From: Candidatus Thiothrix sulfatifontis
GTDB taxonomy: Bacteria > Pseudomonadota > Gammaproteobacteria > Thiotrichales > Thiotrichaceae
Direction of reading: 5' to 3'
Assembly: GCA_022828425.1 (NCBI GenBank)
Contig: CP094685.1
Location: 1,488,001 to 1,552,000, forward strand
DNA: 64,000 nucleotides
Shown here: positions 45,628-58,687 of the stretch, piece after piece
Layout of the letters: every line of letters begins with the position of its first letter
Position numbering within the stretch: position 1 is the stretch's first letter
Made by a program: the position numbers and the translations under genes
Notes under the pieces: generated by a model
What the model was told of the DNA's origin: nothing
The model's database searches: none
Seen by the model: only the letters and a program-made list of their open reading frames with translations

Positions 45628-45705
<78 letters not shown>

Positions 45706-45827: not shown

Positions 45828-46115
45828 CTATCGCCACAGTGACATAAACAAGGCGATACCCCACACGAACCCACCGATCATGAATTGCTGCCAGTCACTA
45901 CTCAATTCTTCAAAGTGTTTCGCTTTTGGGAATATCAAACCCGCTGCAATGGCAAAGAGCGATACTTGCAACCAGCCCAGCCATTCAGGAAGATCGTTCA
46001 TGAATTGCCAGTTGGCGAATTGAACAAGCTGCTTTGCGTCGATTAGCCAACTCACCAATAATATGGTTAGCAGTGCGAATCCTGCACGCGCCCATTGCTT
46101 CCAGTCTTGATACAT
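45828..46115 (-). CDS. small membrane protein of the element
   Basis: The 95-aa product has three hydrophobic stretches (about residues 9-25, 45-62 and 77-94). AAGGTGA lies at a good distance from its ATG. It is the last gene before attL, downstream of the 718-aa membrane protein on the same strand. No family recognised; one rival plus-strand frame over the same region has no ribosome binding site. Confidence 0.65.
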   Translation of the reverse strand: MYQDWKQWARAGFALLTILLVSWLIDAKQLVQFANWQFMNDLPEWLGWLQVSLFAIAAGLIFPKAKHFEELSSDWQQFMIGGFVWGIALFMSLWR

Positions 46116-46206: not shown

Positions 46207-48363
46207 TTACGCTAACAGGTATTTAGTAAATGGCGGTTTGCCGGTGTATCGAGGATTCAGCAGCAACACGCCCTCTTTCGCTGCCCTCGCTTGCCAGATG
46301 ACAATGAGCGCGTTCATTCCTTCGGGTGTAATCGTGCGTTTTTTGCCTTGGCACAAATGAGCGTTCACGAATGAACGTCCGTCTCTGGTAGTCAGTTTTG
46401 TTTCACCTGACAGAATCGCGGCTTTCCATTGTTCATACAACCCGTAGCCCTCTTTCAGAATGTCGGCTTCGATCTTGCCTTGTGCGTCCTTCATGGCTTC
46501 CAGTAGCTCTTTTTCCGCATCATACGAATGAGCGCGTTCATTGGTTGAATGAACAGGTTCATTGCTTGCAGTACGTTCATTGCCCGAATGAGCGCGTTCA
46601 TTGGTTGGAATGAACGTAGGGGAATGAGCGTGTTGATTAGCACCACGTTCATTGCGTGCATCAATGATCTGTTCATTCGCGGAATGAGCGCGTTCATTGG
46701 TTGCGGGTGTTGCCTTGGCAATTTTGCCAACAACTTTCAGCAAGTCGCCATCATCCAAGTCAGCCGGATTAAATAGCTTTGAATAACCATCGAATACCGC
46801 CGCCTGAATATCGGCCTCAGTTGTTGCGCCTGACTTTTTAACCGCATCCACTAACGCATGGATAGTTTCCGCCACGGATTGGCGCTTGATTGCCGGGGTA
46901 GGGGATTGGTTAAACACTTCGCCCGCTTCATGCTTTGCCGTTTCTGCCTGATACAATCGGCTGACATTCGCGGCTTGATCGGCTGATTGTTTAAAGCCTG
47001 TTACCGATTTAATCACTGGCGCGTCGGATTGCCATTTTAGATTCTCGGCTTCGATCTTTTTTTCAAACGCTTCAGCCTCCTTTTCGGTTTCAAAATAGGT
47101 TTGATGCAATCCCAGCATGGTGATGGGGTTGCCATCTTCACCAATGCCAGTTTTATTTAAACGCTGCCATTCTTTAAGCGCTGCATCGGCTTCGTGTGCT
47201 TTAAAAACTTTATCCATTTTTCGCCCATTTGCCAGCGTGCAATACAGGTGATGACGCTCAGCAACTTCAGGTTTTTTAGCCAATGATTCGTCTATCTTGT
47301 TCCCAACGGCCTGCAATTTGTCGCCCACCATTGCGGCTGATTGTTCGCGGGCATGTTGCGCACGCGCATATTCCGTTGCGATGATTTCAGGGGATGCCTT
47401 TAAACCTTCCTCAATTTTCGCTGCGTATTCGCCCACGGTTTGTTTGGCAGAGTTCGCGGCTCCGTTAAGCGCTGCCATGGGTGCGGATTCGGATTTATCG
47501 GAGTAGGTGCTGATGCTGCCATCAAATTTGCGCGGTGGTTGGCGTAGGTTGCGGGTAACGTCATAGCCATGTGCCATGAGGTATTCACGCGCCGCCGCGA
47601 ACTGCCCACCCAGATAGTGAAATGCGTACTCGAAAAAGGCTATCAGGGTGAGGGAAACCAGAAACGAACCAACTGTACCGGATGCGCCGAAGGTTTCGCG
47701 TAACAGGTTCACTAGGGGATGGTAATTGCTTTCGTCTTTTTCCATGGTTTTTGCGGTTGCAGCGAGGGCTAGGGCTTGTGATTGGCTTGCCGTTGCATGG
47801 TTGGCTATCATCTTATTGACGGCCTCCACACGCGCTGCGGATTTCGTGCAATCTGCCCATATTCCGCCTTTACCTGCATCCCGATTCTGAATGCATGTTG
47901 CCAGCTTCATTTCTGCATTTTGCAGGTCGGCAGAGTAGGGCGATGCACTGGCACTGCCACCAATCGCGCCCACAATGGCCTTGTAGGTCGGGGATTCTTG
48001 GCTTTTGGTTTCCATGCGAATGTTGTCACGTTCCATGCCTTGCCCGACCTCAGAGAGCATTGAGAAGGACACCGCCACCACGACAGCTAGAATGGTCGCT
48101 TTTTTGCCGCCTGCGACGTTGCCCGCGCCGTAAAGGATAAATTGGTAGCCGGTCATAACCGCCGTAATGCCGATAGCAACTAAGCCATTCATCCACTGCG
48201 AGCCATCCCATTCTAATACGCGCAAATGCCCGGCAAGGTAGCCGACCACAAAGTAGGAACTCATGGCAAAAGCGACAAAGGCCGCCAGCATGTAGAACAG
48301 TTTGCGGGTTTTGTAATCGCTGTAAGCCAAACCCGCGTTAAAGTTTTCGTTAGCATTTTTCAT
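46207..48363 (-). CDS. 718-aa membrane protein of the element with repetitive C-terminal linker
   Basis: The ATG at 48363 starts MKNANENFNAGLAYSDYKTRK. Four membrane helices are likely (residues about 22-45, 58-79, 88-106 and 228-250), with Cys157 and Cys172 in the loop between helices 3 and 4. A long soluble, Ala/Glu-rich helical region follows. A repetitive linker rich in NERAHS-like units precedes a folded C-terminal domain (EKELLEAMKDAQGK...GKPPFTKYLLA). No P-loop is present, so it is not a Zot/pI ATPase. Function unknown; its place next to the replicase suggests a membrane-associated replication, transfer or extrusion role, which is inference. Confidence 0.8.
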   Translation of the reverse strand: MKNANENFNAGLAYSDYKTRKLFYMLAAFVAFAMSSYFVVGYLAGHLRVLEWDGSQWMNGLVAIGITAVMTGYQFILYGAGNVAGGKKATILAVVVAVSFSMLSEVGQGMERDNIRMETKSQESPTYKAIVGAIGGSASASPYSADLQNAEMKLATCIQNRDAGKGGIWADCTKSAARVEAVNKMIANHATASQSQALALAATAKTMEKDESNYHPLVNLLRETFGASGTVGSFLVSLTLIAFFEYAFHYLGGQFAAAREYLMAHGYDVTRNLRQPPRKFDGSISTYSDKSESAPMAALNGAANSAKQTVGEYAAKIEEGLKASPEIIATEYARAQHAREQSAAMVGDKLQAVGNKIDESLAKKPEVAERHHLYCTLANGRKMDKVFKAHEADAALKEWQRLNKTGIGEDGNPITMLGLHQTYFETEKEAEAFEKKIEAENLKWQSDAPVIKSVTGFKQSADQAANVSRLYQAETAKHEAGEVFNQSPTPAIKRQSVAETIHALVDAVKKSGATTEADIQAAVFDGYSKLFNPADLDDGDLLKVVGKIAKATPATNERAHSANEQIIDARNERGANQHAHSPTFIPTNERAHSGNERTASNEPVHSTNERAHSYDAEKELLEAMKDAQGKIEADILKEGYGLYEQWKAAILSGETKLTTRDGRSFVNAHLCQGKKRTITPEGMNALIVIWQARAAKEGVLLLNPRYTGKPPFTKYLLA
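46303..46698. repeat. cluster of 16-bp near-palindromes inside the 718-aa gene
   Basis: AATGAGCGCGTTCATT occurs exactly four times (46303-46318, 46527-46542, 46587-46602, 46683-46698). Variants lie between them: AATGAACAGGTTCATT (46548-46563, a perfect 7+2+7 palindrome), AATGAGCGTGTTGATT (46623-46638), AATGATCTGTTCATT (46663-46677), and several GTTCATT/AATGAAC half sites. The copy at 46303 is read in another codon phase (MNALI) than the rest (NERAHS), so the DNA rather than the peptide is conserved. Confidence 0.9.
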
Positions 48364-48365
48364 GA

Positions 48366-48530
48366 TTAGACCACCCATTGAAAGTTAGATAAAACAAAGC
48401 CTGCGACGATTTCGTGTTTTCCATCCCTGCGCACAATCATCATGCTGCCGTTTTTGTACCGCTGTAGAATTGCGACTTGCTCTTTTTTGCCGTCAAGACG
48501 TTGCATTGCGGCTGTACCTATCATTTTCAT
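48366..48530 (-). CDS. 54-aa protein of the element
   Basis: A short ORF starts MKMIGTAAMQRLDGKKEQVA and ends VAGFVLSNFQWVV. It has an excellent AAGGAG ribosome binding site and sits 2 bp before the 718-aa gene. It is basic in the middle (QRYKNGSMMIVRRDGKHE). Compact gene packing on both sides supports it being real. No family recognised. Confidence 0.7.
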   Translation of the reverse strand: MKMIGTAAMQRLDGKKEQVAILQRYKNGSMMIVRRDGKHEIVAGFVLSNFQWVV

Positions 48531-48541
48531 TTGAAATCTCC

Positions 48542-48892
48542 TTAAAACCAGTAACTAAGCAACAAAACGGCAAATGCGAACAGGATAGCCCGTGCGCCGT
48601 GTTTGACTTGTGCAGCGACGAAACAGGCCATGCAGAGCGTCAAGCCCATTAGCACGTATAGCCAATTGTTTGCAGCGGGGAACATGCCCGCGTAATGCAG
48701 GCCGAATGCCGTCGGAATCAGCAGGAACATTGCCCAAACAGCCACGGCAAATAGAAAGGCCATCCACGGAATGAGTGCGTGGAGGCGTTCCCAGTTGATC
48801 GGGGTGCGGTCAAAGTCATCAGGGAAGTGCTGATGGTTGCGCCCGGTGTCGAGGTGCGTTTGCTCAGCGGGTGTCAGTAGTGGCTTGCTCAT
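48542..48892 (-). CDS. three-helix membrane protein of the element
   Basis: The 116-aa product has a polar N-terminus (MSKPLLTPAEQTHLDTGRNH) and three hydrophobic helices (about residues 42-62, 72-92 and 97-115). It overlaps the stop of the 69-aa gene upstream (ATGA). It may partner with the 718-aa membrane protein; no family recognised. Confidence 0.75.
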   Translation of the reverse strand: MSKPLLTPAEQTHLDTGRNHQHFPDDFDRTPINWERLHALIPWMAFLFAVAVWAMFLLIPTAFGLHYAGMFPAANNWLYVLMGLTLCMACFVAAQVKHGARAILFAFAVLLLSYWF

Positions 48893-49098
48893 GACTTCAC
48901 CTCATGAATTTTAAAACCGCTATGCAGGTTGTTGTGCTTAAACTGCAACGCACTAAATGCAAGTCTGGCGCTTTGTAGGGTGCTGAACTGGTGAGCCTTG
49001 AACAAATCACCCACCACGATGGATAAGCCTGCTCCGGGAGTCGAACGAATCACTACCAGCCGATCAAAGCGGCTTTCGATGGTGTATTGAGTGCTCAT
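48889..49098 (-). CDS. 69-aa protein of the element
   Basis: A small soluble alpha/beta-looking protein (MSTQYTIESRFDRLVVIRST...LHSGFKIHEVKS). It is coupled by 4-bp overlaps to the replicase upstream and the membrane protein downstream. In ssDNA replicons this position is often held by ssDNA-binding or replication accessory proteins, but no motif proves that here. Confidence 0.7.
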   Translation of the reverse strand: MSTQYTIESRFDRLVVIRSTPGAGLSIVVGDLFKAHQFSTLQSARLAFSALQFKHNNLHSGFKIHEVKS

Positions 49099-50786
49099 GC
49101 TGCCACCTCATATCTACAATTATTTTCCAGAACTCCAAGGGGCGAATTTTCAGCGATTGCCAGAAATTCAAAGCGGTCAACATCATCACTCTCTGATTCT
49201 TCAACACGTCTAACAACTTCCCATTTATGGTTGTGCGTGATGACTTCGATAGAATCAGGTGTGTATTCCAAACCGATTACGCGGCTTGTGATTTCTCCGT
49301 AAAGGTTAGGCTTAGGGTTGTCTACCCTGATTGTGGAAAGTGGCTGTAATGCCTTTTGTGATTGGATTGTGAGGAATGCCAGATAGTCGGAATGGTCAGC
49401 AGCAACACGCGCTAATTCCACAATGCCGTCTTGACCGTCTTTAATGCGCCGTAGTTCGCGCCAGATACCCACTTGACCGAATCCACGGGAGAATTGAAAT
49501 GCACGGATAATATGCGTTGTACGCCACGCATGAACCCGCACTGATGATTCAGCAGCATCAAGCCCACTTTCAAAGTCTTCGGTAACAGATGCGCCGTCGA
49601 TGTTCTTTGAAATGTATTTTGCAATGTAAGAAGCCGCCCGTCCTTTTTTCGGGTCAATTCGCACGATGTCAACACGGTATTTCTTTGCACCCGCTTCGTC
49701 TGCATCTTCACGCAACCATTTTGACCATAGCAGTTTGGTGAAAGCTGGCACGTTGGATTCAGCGACAAAGGCGATGCAATGCCAATGTGTAGCACCATCA
49801 TGGTGAGGTTCGGTAACGCGCATAAAATCGCACTGAATCGCCTTGTGTTTGAGTGCAGCGCGTAACCTTGCCCAACTCACCGACAACCATTCATGCCCCA
49901 AACGCGGGGTATTGATGCGGCTTTCAATGGTGGCGGATTTGCCCCGACCACGCCGCCATTCAATCACCTCTTGATACTTCGGATTCTGGACAATTTGACC
50001 GCCGATCTTGTGCTTAACGCCCATTGAATCGGTTTTGATGTAACCCGCTTTACGGGTGAATTGATGGAACTTTGATGGTGCAGTCAGGGTAAGGAATAGG
50101 GCGATTTTGCCTTGTGCAGCAAAGAACTTTTCGCCGTCACTGATGCGTAACATCATTTCATTGCGACGGTTGTTAGGATCGGATATGCCAGCGTCAACGG
50201 CTTGCATCATGGGCATGACTTCGCCGGTATCCACGTCAATTAGATCGCAGGATTCTAGCCATTCACGATTGCGCTCTTGACGCATCAAAGCGCGGCTTAG
50301 TGAGTGATTGCTGATATAAACTTGCTTTCCAGCATTCACAAAGCCTAAGCGGATAGCCTGTAGTTCCTGTTGTTGCGCCTGTTGATTGCGCAATTTACGC
50401 AACCACCATTTTTCTGAACAGAGACGCGCTCTAATGCCTTCGGTAACGGCTTTCTCTCCCGTTGTACCATCGTGTCTGACTGTCTGCTTAGAAACGATTG
50501 GCGGGGCGATACCACGGCTTTTCAGGTAGTCGAATGCGCGTTTTAGTGGCGTTCCTTCAGGGGCAAGCTGTTTGCATTTTGACGCTGCCAACATCGCAGA
50601 AAAGCGTAAGCCGTCTTCGTCTTTGTCGCTGGCAGGTGAACGGCTGGCAATGGCTTGTTGCTGGTGCAAATAGTTTTCACCAGTAGCGGATTCAGCATGG
50701 TGGTGTTGCCATTCGGCTTCAATGTCTTTGATGAAAGCGGGGTTGAAGCTGGCGAAAGCGGGGTTAGTTTGGGCGACGTGCATCAT
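49095..50786 (-). CDS. phage P2 gpA-type HUH replication endonuclease
   Basis: The 563-aa product matches Phage_GPA replication initiators. Motif 1 is FLTLTAPSKFH (residues 231-241), the metal-binding HUH motif is HWH (334-336) in GATHWHCIAFV, and the paired catalytic tyrosines are Y387 and Y391 in YIAKYISKN. Two tyrosines indicate rolling-circle replication in which the protein nicks and rejoins without turnover loss. In P2 the nick site lies within the gene itself. The ATG at 50786 overlaps the upstream stop (ATGA). This gene shows that the element can replicate outside the chromosome. Confidence 0.9.
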   Translation of the reverse strand: MMHVAQTNPAFASFNPAFIKDIEAEWQHHHAESATGENYLHQQQAIASRSPASDKDEDGLRFSAMLAASKCKQLAPEGTPLKRAFDYLKSRGIAPPIVSKQTVRHDGTTGEKAVTEGIRARLCSEKWWLRKLRNQQAQQQELQAIRLGFVNAGKQVYISNHSLSRALMRQERNREWLESCDLIDVDTGEVMPMMQAVDAGISDPNNRRNEMMLRISDGEKFFAAQGKIALFLTLTAPSKFHQFTRKAGYIKTDSMGVKHKIGGQIVQNPKYQEVIEWRRGRGKSATIESRINTPRLGHEWLSVSWARLRAALKHKAIQCDFMRVTEPHHDGATHWHCIAFVAESNVPAFTKLLWSKWLREDADEAGAKKYRVDIVRIDPKKGRAASYIAKYISKNIDGASVTEDFESGLDAAESSVRVHAWRTTHIIRAFQFSRGFGQVGIWRELRRIKDGQDGIVELARVAADHSDYLAFLTIQSQKALQPLSTIRVDNPKPNLYGEITSRVIGLEYTPDSIEVITHNHKWEVVRRVEESESDDVDRFEFLAIAENSPLGVLENNCRYEVAA

Positions 50787-57125: not shown

Positions 57126-58436
57126 TCATTCACCGACTACCCGCAACTGCACCACGTTTGCTTGTGGTGAACCTGCAAGGATGTTTTGCAAATACGCATC
57201 CCATACCGCGCTGGTTTGTCGGTGTTCGGCAAGGTAGTTGTAGCGGTCATAGTGCTTGCTGGATACGTCGGTTAATGCGTGATTCTGGAAGCGGTCACGC
57301 GCTTCTTTGCTGATACCTGCAAAGCCCATCAACGTTTTTGCAGTGCGCCGTATGTCCTTAGGCTGGAAATGTTCTAGGTTGATTCGCCGACATAGCTTGG
57401 TGATTGCATGAGAAAGCGTAGTCGAGTCGATAGGTTCCTCACGTTTGCTTTTAATCTTACCAAACAGTTCCCCGCCTGCATTGGTATCGAGCATTCGTTC
57501 TTTCAGTAAGGGTTCTGCCACATCACCAAATGGGATTACATGGGTAGTACCGTTTTTCGTATCACGGAATGTTACTAGCCTATTCACAAAATCCACATCA
57601 TCCTCGGTGAGGAACAATACATCTTCGACACGTTGACCACCGAGCGCGAAAAGCAAGCGTATCGCCCCAATGGTTTTCGGGTGAAAATCTGAGTCGCCTA
57701 ATGCCTCCCATACCTGCTTCACCTCAAATTCTGACAATGCCCGATCACGGGGTTTTTCTGATTTCAGAGGTTTTGGCACATCACGAACAGGGTTTGTCTT
57801 AATGCCGAAACGTAATGACTCAAAATGCCGCCGAGAATCATTGTCCCATGAAATGCCAAACGCGAAAGCAGCCGATAAATAAGCACGTACCCTGTTTGCC
57901 ATTACTAGCGCATCACGCTGAATGATTTCCGCTAACACTGCGCGGATGTCATCGGGTAGCACGTCTTTTGCTTTGGTGGTTGCCGGAATGTGTTGATAGA
58001 CGTTCGTTTCAAATACCCGTTCAGTTTCAGACCATGAGCGCTTACCGTTGGTTTTTAGATCATTGGTGTAGGCTTCAAGCAATTGCCTGACACTGCCTTG
58101 CATGGCTTCATGTTTGCGTTGCAATGCGGTTGCTTTGCGGTTTTCCTCTTCTCGCTCTAATTGTTCCGCTTGAACTGTTTTCGGGTCACGCCCTGAATCG
58201 TAAATAGCCCGCCAGTGTGACCATAGTTCCCTTGCTTGCGCGAGTGTGGTTTGAGGGTGATAGCCTAGCACCATTGGCACGTCGCGCCCGTCTGTGGCTT
58301 TGTAACGGAATATGAAGCTGATTTTTCCCGATGGTGAGACTTTCACCCCAAAGCCCGCGTAACCATCATCCATCTTGCGGTATGCCGTACCAGTAGCTTT
58401 TAGTGATTTGATGAAATTAACTGTCAGTTTTGCCAC
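57126..58436 (-). CDS. int: tyrosine-recombinase integrase of the element
   Basis: The 436-aa product has the order DUF4102 arm-binding domain (TAYRKMDDGYAGFGVKVSPSGKISFIFRYK), core-binding SAM-like domain and a catalytic domain. The catalytic domain shows Arg in LGGQRVEDVLFL, PKDIRRTAKTLMGF (box II, with Lys where His is usual), NHALTD and the nucleophile Tyr in SSKHYDRYNYL. It lies next to attR and is read inwards. Integrases of this kind use tRNA 3' ends, as seen here. Confidence 0.93.
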   Translation of the reverse strand: MAKLTVNFIKSLKATGTAYRKMDDGYAGFGVKVSPSGKISFIFRYKATDGRDVPMVLGYHPQTTLAQARELWSHWRAIYDSGRDPKTVQAEQLEREEENRKATALQRKHEAMQGSVRQLLEAYTNDLKTNGKRSWSETERVFETNVYQHIPATTKAKDVLPDDIRAVLAEIIQRDALVMANRVRAYLSAAFAFGISWDNDSRRHFESLRFGIKTNPVRDVPKPLKSEKPRDRALSEFEVKQVWEALGDSDFHPKTIGAIRLLFALGGQRVEDVLFLTEDDVDFVNRLVTFRDTKNGTTHVIPFGDVAEPLLKERMLDTNAGGELFGKIKSKREEPIDSTTLSHAITKLCRRINLEHFQPKDIRRTAKTLMGFAGISKEARDRFQNHALTDVSSKHYDRYNYLAEHRQTSAVWDAYLQNILAGSPQANVVQLRVVGE

Positions 58437-58636: not shown

Positions 58637-58687
58637 CTGACTTGTAATCAGTAGGTCCCGCGTTCGATTCGTGGTGCCGGCACCAAA
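58637..58687 (+). repeat. attR: 51-bp direct repeat (tRNA-Thr 3' fragment)
   Basis: Identical to attL. It is not a functional tRNA because the acceptor 5' strand and D-arm are missing. Confidence 0.95.

Follow-up and report, generated by a model that had tools for sequence, protein, structure and literature searches.

Why should a short near-palindrome recur, letter for letter, inside a protein-coding sequence, and in more than one reading phase? The question is raised by a 64,000-nucleotide stretch of Candidatus Thiothrix sulfatifontis (GenBank assembly GCA_022828425.1, contig CP094685.1, positions 1,488,001 to 1,552,000), hereafter the window. In it the 16-bp near-palindrome AATGAGCGCGTTCATT has four exact copies between positions 46303 and 46698, all inside one minus-strand gene (46207–48378) that encodes a predicted four-span membrane protein of 723 amino acids with a linker and a C-terminal winged-helix-like domain. 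Our answer, to which we assign a probability of about 0.6 from sequence comparison and structure prediction, is that the palindromes are likely sites for the predicted C-terminal domain of the protein itself, which would tether a mobile replicon to the membrane and thereby help to maintain it.

Three of the exact copies lie, on the minus strand, in the linker (46525–46704) and are read in one phase as NERAHS: 46683–46698 (AATGAACGCGCTCATT on the gene strand), 46587–46602, and 46527–46542. Between them stand two variants on the same strand, one with two mismatches (46623–46638) and one with three (46548–46563; AATGAACCTGTTCATT on the gene strand). The fourth exact copy (46303–46318, minus strand) lies 224 bp away within the C-terminal domain and, in a different phase, encodes MNALI. 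At up to three mismatches the window holds 11 strand-matches, compared with a mean of 1.14 and a maximum of 4 in shuffles, none of 100 of which gave 11. Coordinates and shuffles thus bear out the original prediction, which had reported four exact 16-mers within 396 bp in two reading phases. The motif is not scattered genome-wide: in the 3.69-Mb, one-contig genome, searched with R/Y ambiguity allowed and at most one mismatch, it occurs only at its four in-gene places.

The same arrangement recurs in relatives of the gene. For 41 family genes, the last 190 codons and the 400 bp downstream were scanned for recurring 16-bp near-palindromes, with a score of at least 24 counted as an array and a p-value floor of 0.016. 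Twenty-two genes reached that score, and locus L100, at a score of 16, also passed its own shuffle test. The same scan found arrays in none of 98 control open reading frames (ORFs with family-like words being excluded, and two of the nine sources, L089 and L147, being the same plasmid) and in none of 40 N-terminal regions of family genes. Admitting other lengths and imperfect dyads adds L092, L093, L100, L103, L107, L110, and L112, so that 29 of the 41 genes have a near-palindrome of their own type, usually of 16 bp. The sites keep to the 3′ part of the gene, where linker and domain together account for 77 of 87 site rows; the 87 include four one-base shifts (L093 and L100) and four sites of a neighboring gene (L108). 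The DNA examined upstream of the 29 genes, about 0.4 to 4.5 kb in length, yielded no site.

These sites are also private. The genome of the window (G000) has four family genes with four different sites, each confined to its own gene, unlike a dispersed selfish palindromic repeat, of which many copies across unrelated genes would be expected. The same genome has two further members: L079, in which no clear site was recognized, and another near position 3061802. Exact matches to ACCGTGCCCGCACGGT occur in family genes only, namely five genes in 4 of 57 genomes; in one of these five genes, one of the two copies carries a mismatch, and all remaining matches have one mismatch. None of 13 site strings tested was found in a locus of another site type.

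What kind of selection maintains these repeats? If NERAHS were a functional peptide, the identity of the DNA would be a mere by-product, and the N-type linker copies do share one phase. This explanation is contradicted on several counts and has, in our estimate, almost no chance of being correct. First, in 13 of the 29 genes the copies with at most two mismatches are spread over at least two coding phases (15 genes were listed and two dropped as one-base-shift artefacts), five of the 13 having one such copy by common descent. Second, three members carry copies outside the gene. In L106, exact ACCCTGTGCGCAGGGT occurs in two phases of the family gene, with two further copies inside the next ORF (99 amino acids). 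The coding array of L088 recurs, with its spacing kept, past the stop codon and before the next gene, where L084 too has two copies; open frames overlap these L088 and L084 copies. Third, codon choice is locked: 11 of the 12 NERAHS units in five N-type genes use AAT GAA CGC GCT CAT, although GCT makes up 15–26% of alanine codons in these genes; the serine codon that comes next has a variable third base, which lies outside the site. A check for genes that keep the peptide but lose the DNA motif thus did not refute the original prediction. Finally, repeats exceed those in synonymous shuffles of the window gene, with 78 direct 8-mer pairs against 12.6 expected and 12 inverted pairs against 1.7; among 45 ORFs, inverted repeats rise above synonymous shuffles (p ≤ 0.05) in 22 and do not in 23. 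Across eight related site pairs of our own choosing, six show mirrored changes in the two arms, as do 12 of 19 changed positions overall.

Mirrored changes would also suit the stems of mRNA hairpins, in which case the selected element would be RNA instead of a DNA site. The linker RNA does fold better than shuffles in two of three stretches (z = −3.24 and −2.23), with a 5-bp stem within one copy and stems linking neighboring copies. However, any repeated palindrome folds in this way, the third stretch, with the MNALI copy, gives z = −0.79, and hairpins leave unexplained why the site follows the protein domain, as described below; we regard this explanation as highly improbable. Because of the several phases, the out-of-gene copies, the locked codons, and the private sites, DNA-level selection on a binding array inside coding sequence is well supported. 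This part of the original prediction stands, whereas the tie that it drew to a gpA-type replicon, as origin, resolution site, or packaging hairpin, is not supported.

Which protein, then, would read the array? The original prediction tied the array to the gpA-type replicon, whose replicase might use it as a binding, nick, or resolution site, and a Phage_GPA-type gene does lie about 0.7 kb upstream of the window gene. More generally, a replication initiator (Rep) was found in the examined upstream DNA, often shorter than 2 kb, of 24 of 40 genes of at least 400 amino acids, in a search whose 12 Rep seeds were drawn from the same loci. These initiators belong to four Pfam families (GPA, Rep_trans, Rep3, and Phage_rep_O; Pfam and PHROG matches for those submitted). 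Similar arrays adjoin Rep_trans, Rep3, and Phage_rep_O genes as well as GPA genes.

The site instead tracks the C-terminal domain. A Mantel analysis (p-value floor 0.0005) covered the 24 of 41 genes in which a curated 16-mer accompanies a winged-helix-type domain. Site and domain similarities correlate with r = 0.82, and with r = 0.79 when the N-terminus is held constant; site and N-terminus, with the domain held constant, give r = −0.12. Excluded were the 12 genes without a clear palindrome, the zinc-type member L076, and also L093, L100, L107, and L112. The 24 include L092, L103, and L110, whose 16-mer was extended or assigned by eye with one mismatch in each copy, and L083, a 241-amino-acid 3′ fragment of an interrupted gene whose N-terminal score is meaningless. 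Neighbor linkage contributes to the correlation, and the replication proteins were therefore compared too. The Rep_trans-type proteins of L078 and L080 show 96% identity across 367 residues, yet the C-terminal domains of the two loci give no alignment and their sites differ. Conversely, the Reps of L108 (GPA type) and L109 (Rep_trans) lack significant similarity, whereas their C-terminal ends are 70% identical over 105 aligned residues and their sites differ by one mirrored pair. By eye, linker repeats and C-terminal ends also vary jointly, NERAHS and TVPARS each going with its own end type and HAPHARVGG with a zinc-type end. These comparisons show that the palindrome goes with the C-terminal domain of its own gene and not with Rep, and that site and domain change jointly. 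The gpA replicase is probably the wrong binder, since arrays of the same kind stand beside other initiator families and the site dissociates from Rep; we give that reading very little weight. Because site and domain change together, we infer that each array is cognate to, and bound by, the domain of its own protein.

Counted from the first ATG, the protein has 723 residues, five more than the database entry of 718, and it has no Pfam match above the cutoff and none in PHROGs or NCBIfam, a ParB-family match being absent from all three. Hydropathy predicts membrane spans 1–3 at residues 27–45, 65–83, and 94–112 (48043–48300, minus strand) and span 4 at residues 230–248 (47635–47691, minus strand). 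The loop between spans 3 and 4 contains a pair of cysteines, both invariant across the 43 sequences of our alignment (A2). Given this predicted layout of three spans, loop, and fourth span, the linker and domain would be cytoplasmic if the N-terminus is. The last 105 residues (46210–46524, minus strand) form the predicted winged-helix-like DNA-binding domain, identified from an AlphaFold2 model and the family alignment. The model has helices followed by two short strands, with a mean predicted local distance difference test score (pLDDT) of 84.3, and its structural matches are weak. Thus the membrane position, the four spans, the cytoplasmic linker and domain, and the winged-helix-like fold are all predictions. 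Most examined members repeat this layout, in which four predicted spans are joined by a linker to a C-terminal domain that is small and usually winged-helix-like. The layout recurs among members with quite different N-terminal sequences. Among 11 members examined by hydropathy, eight have four spans, L078 has three, L111 has five, and L089 has none.

The mechanism that we favor combines these features. A dimer of the C-terminal domain would bind each 16-bp dyad, and the predicted membrane anchoring of the bound array would hold the mobile replicon at the membrane and keep it in the cell line. Less certainly, the effect would be to position the replicon in a partition-like way or to anchor its origin, and not, for instance, to autoregulate the gene. 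Distinct arrays would allow several such replicons to share a cell without a common anchor.

Two other uses of a bound array must be weighed, and both are compatible with tethering and with one another. The protein might block its own transcription by binding its in-gene sites, the membrane part having a separate job, as the position of 77 of the 87 site rows inside the gene would allow. However, repressor operators usually lie upstream of the gene, where the examined DNA holds no site. The extra arrays past the stop codon in L084, L088, and L106 would be useless for an in-gene roadblock, and the membrane spans and the frequent Rep neighbor would be left unexplained. We consider autoregulation rather unlikely as the main role, although it could coexist with tethering. 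Alternatively, the array may be part of an origin or copy-control site, much like the in-gene iterons of lambda O, with the protein as an accessory that takes the origin to the membrane. The initiators upstream of 24 of the 40 genes speak for such replication control, but these replicons already have an initiator of their own and the sites do not follow it, so that we rate this possibility as unlikely too, if marginally less so than autoregulation. Because Rep is frequent upstream and no site was found in the DNA examined there, tethering is preferred over autoregulation, and replication control is its main rival.

A bolder form of the tethering proposal is that these replicons are kept without any nucleoside triphosphatase (NTPase), by a membrane-spanning protein with a private in-gene centromere. 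Address and reader would be swapped as one cassette that is coupled to at least four initiator families. We hold this to be a real possibility at somewhat less than even odds.

Several observations weigh against the tethering interpretation. ParA genes are present elsewhere on the plasmids pTunz1 and pTunz3 of T. unzii, and a family member on pTunz6 has no membrane spans. Pairs of genes with the same site occur within genomes G007, G010, and G057. Lastly, 12 of the 41 genes have no clear site (L027, L079, L085, L089, L098, L101, L102, L104, L111, L113, L114, and L115). Among these, the members with DYQKG/DYLKG repeats (L085, L098, and L102) have in common an imperfect ACTACC-N5-GGNAGT dyad that the palindrome criteria miss, with one L102 copy departing from it.

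It is useful to contrast this family with systems that resemble it in part. In phage lambda, the cognate repeats of O also lie inside its own gene and vary in number among related phages; however, O is the replication initiator, and the iterons are almost identical among the phages compared there (PMC7466680). The Thiothrix dyads are private and vary with the type of domain, and the initiator is often encoded by another gene next door. StbA of plasmid R388 is likewise a DNA-binding stability protein with repeats beside its gene and no need for the ATPase StbB, but its stbDRs, direct repeats of 9 bp, precede the stb operon, and the parts of the report consulted describe no membrane spans (PMC3098194); in the Thiothrix family no site was found in the DNA examined upstream of the 29 genes. 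Protein p16.7 of phage phi29 is an integral membrane protein that organizes phage DNA replication at the membrane; it works through terminal protein and single-stranded DNA, and the sections consulted describe no in-gene site array (PMC4974454). The gamma domain of FtsK also counts among the closest known systems. In type I partition, ParB is a site-specific DNA-binding protein with palindromic parS sites near its own gene; ParB is, however, a soluble partner of the ATPase ParA, whereas in the Thiothrix family the predicted membrane anchor belongs to the putative DNA-binding polypeptide itself. No ParA was found among the proteins of the window element that were searched, which come from part of its ORFs.

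The window gene resides in an element of about 13 kb that is bounded by two identical 51-bp segments matching the 3′ part of tRNA-Thr (att-like repeats at 45655–45705 and 58637–58687, plus strand). The integrase (57126–58436, minus strand; PF00589) lies at the far end from the window gene, and the Phage_GPA-type initiator mentioned above occupies 49095–50786 (minus strand; PF05840, E = 1.6e-61; phrog_91). Two small proteins, both hydrophobic by eye and conserved in several loci, flank the family gene on the minus strand: one of 116 amino acids between it and Rep (48542–48892) and one of 95 amino acids downstream (45828–46115). Between the integrase and an AlpA-like gene there is also a match to the int-alpA RNA family RF02996 (56209–56276, minus strand; 61.7 bits, cutoff 35.8).

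As far as searched, this unnamed gene family is limited to one bacterial family, Thiothrix and its kin. A protein search with the window gene returned 63 relatives, the named ones mostly Thiothrix, and a domain-profile search matched 3 of 369 genomes of the class, including that of the window, all in its own bacterial family. None of the literature listings consulted describes the gene family; the Thiothrix genome paper lists the plasmids, and its main text contains neither “partition” nor “palindrom” (PMC8570282). In both pTunz1 and pTunz3, Rep is followed by a protein of about 115 amino acids and then by the family gene. pTunz1 has two such Rep/family-gene cassettes, of which only one has a clear 16-bp site by the criteria used; together with a Tn3-family transposase gene, this pair makes the plasmid (L146) resemble a fusion of two replicons. 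The records of L089 (pTunz6) and L090 (pTunz5) look like head-to-tail dimers, the unit being about 7.16 kb in the first and 7.42 kb in the second; each carries a 217-amino-acid, spanless member whose start resembles, by eye, that of a 114-amino-acid pTunz3 protein. L083 (G009:C2 3276557–3280146) is a relative split into pieces of 494 and 241 amino acids about 1.4 kb apart, the second of which retains an array. After L084, L088, and L106 a small ORF with an (A)YW-G-W-like start recurs (by eye), that of L106 holding two palindrome copies. Finally, L079 (G000:C1 near 403316) is a relative of about 500 amino acids that matches the N-terminal half and has counterparts in many of the same-genus genomes searched; the copy in the window's genome lacks a clear palindrome array, and this type is possibly a host version.

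More broadly, what passes for a repeat of the protein can be an element of the DNA. Should the binding that we infer be right, the family would offer many natural pairs of a DNA-binding domain and a 16-bp address, both legible in the sequence itself, as well as a small system beside replication genes in which DNA-to-membrane tethering can be tested. That replicons segregate through attachment to the membrane is an old proposal; the NTPase-free cassette, if true, would be its molecular form.
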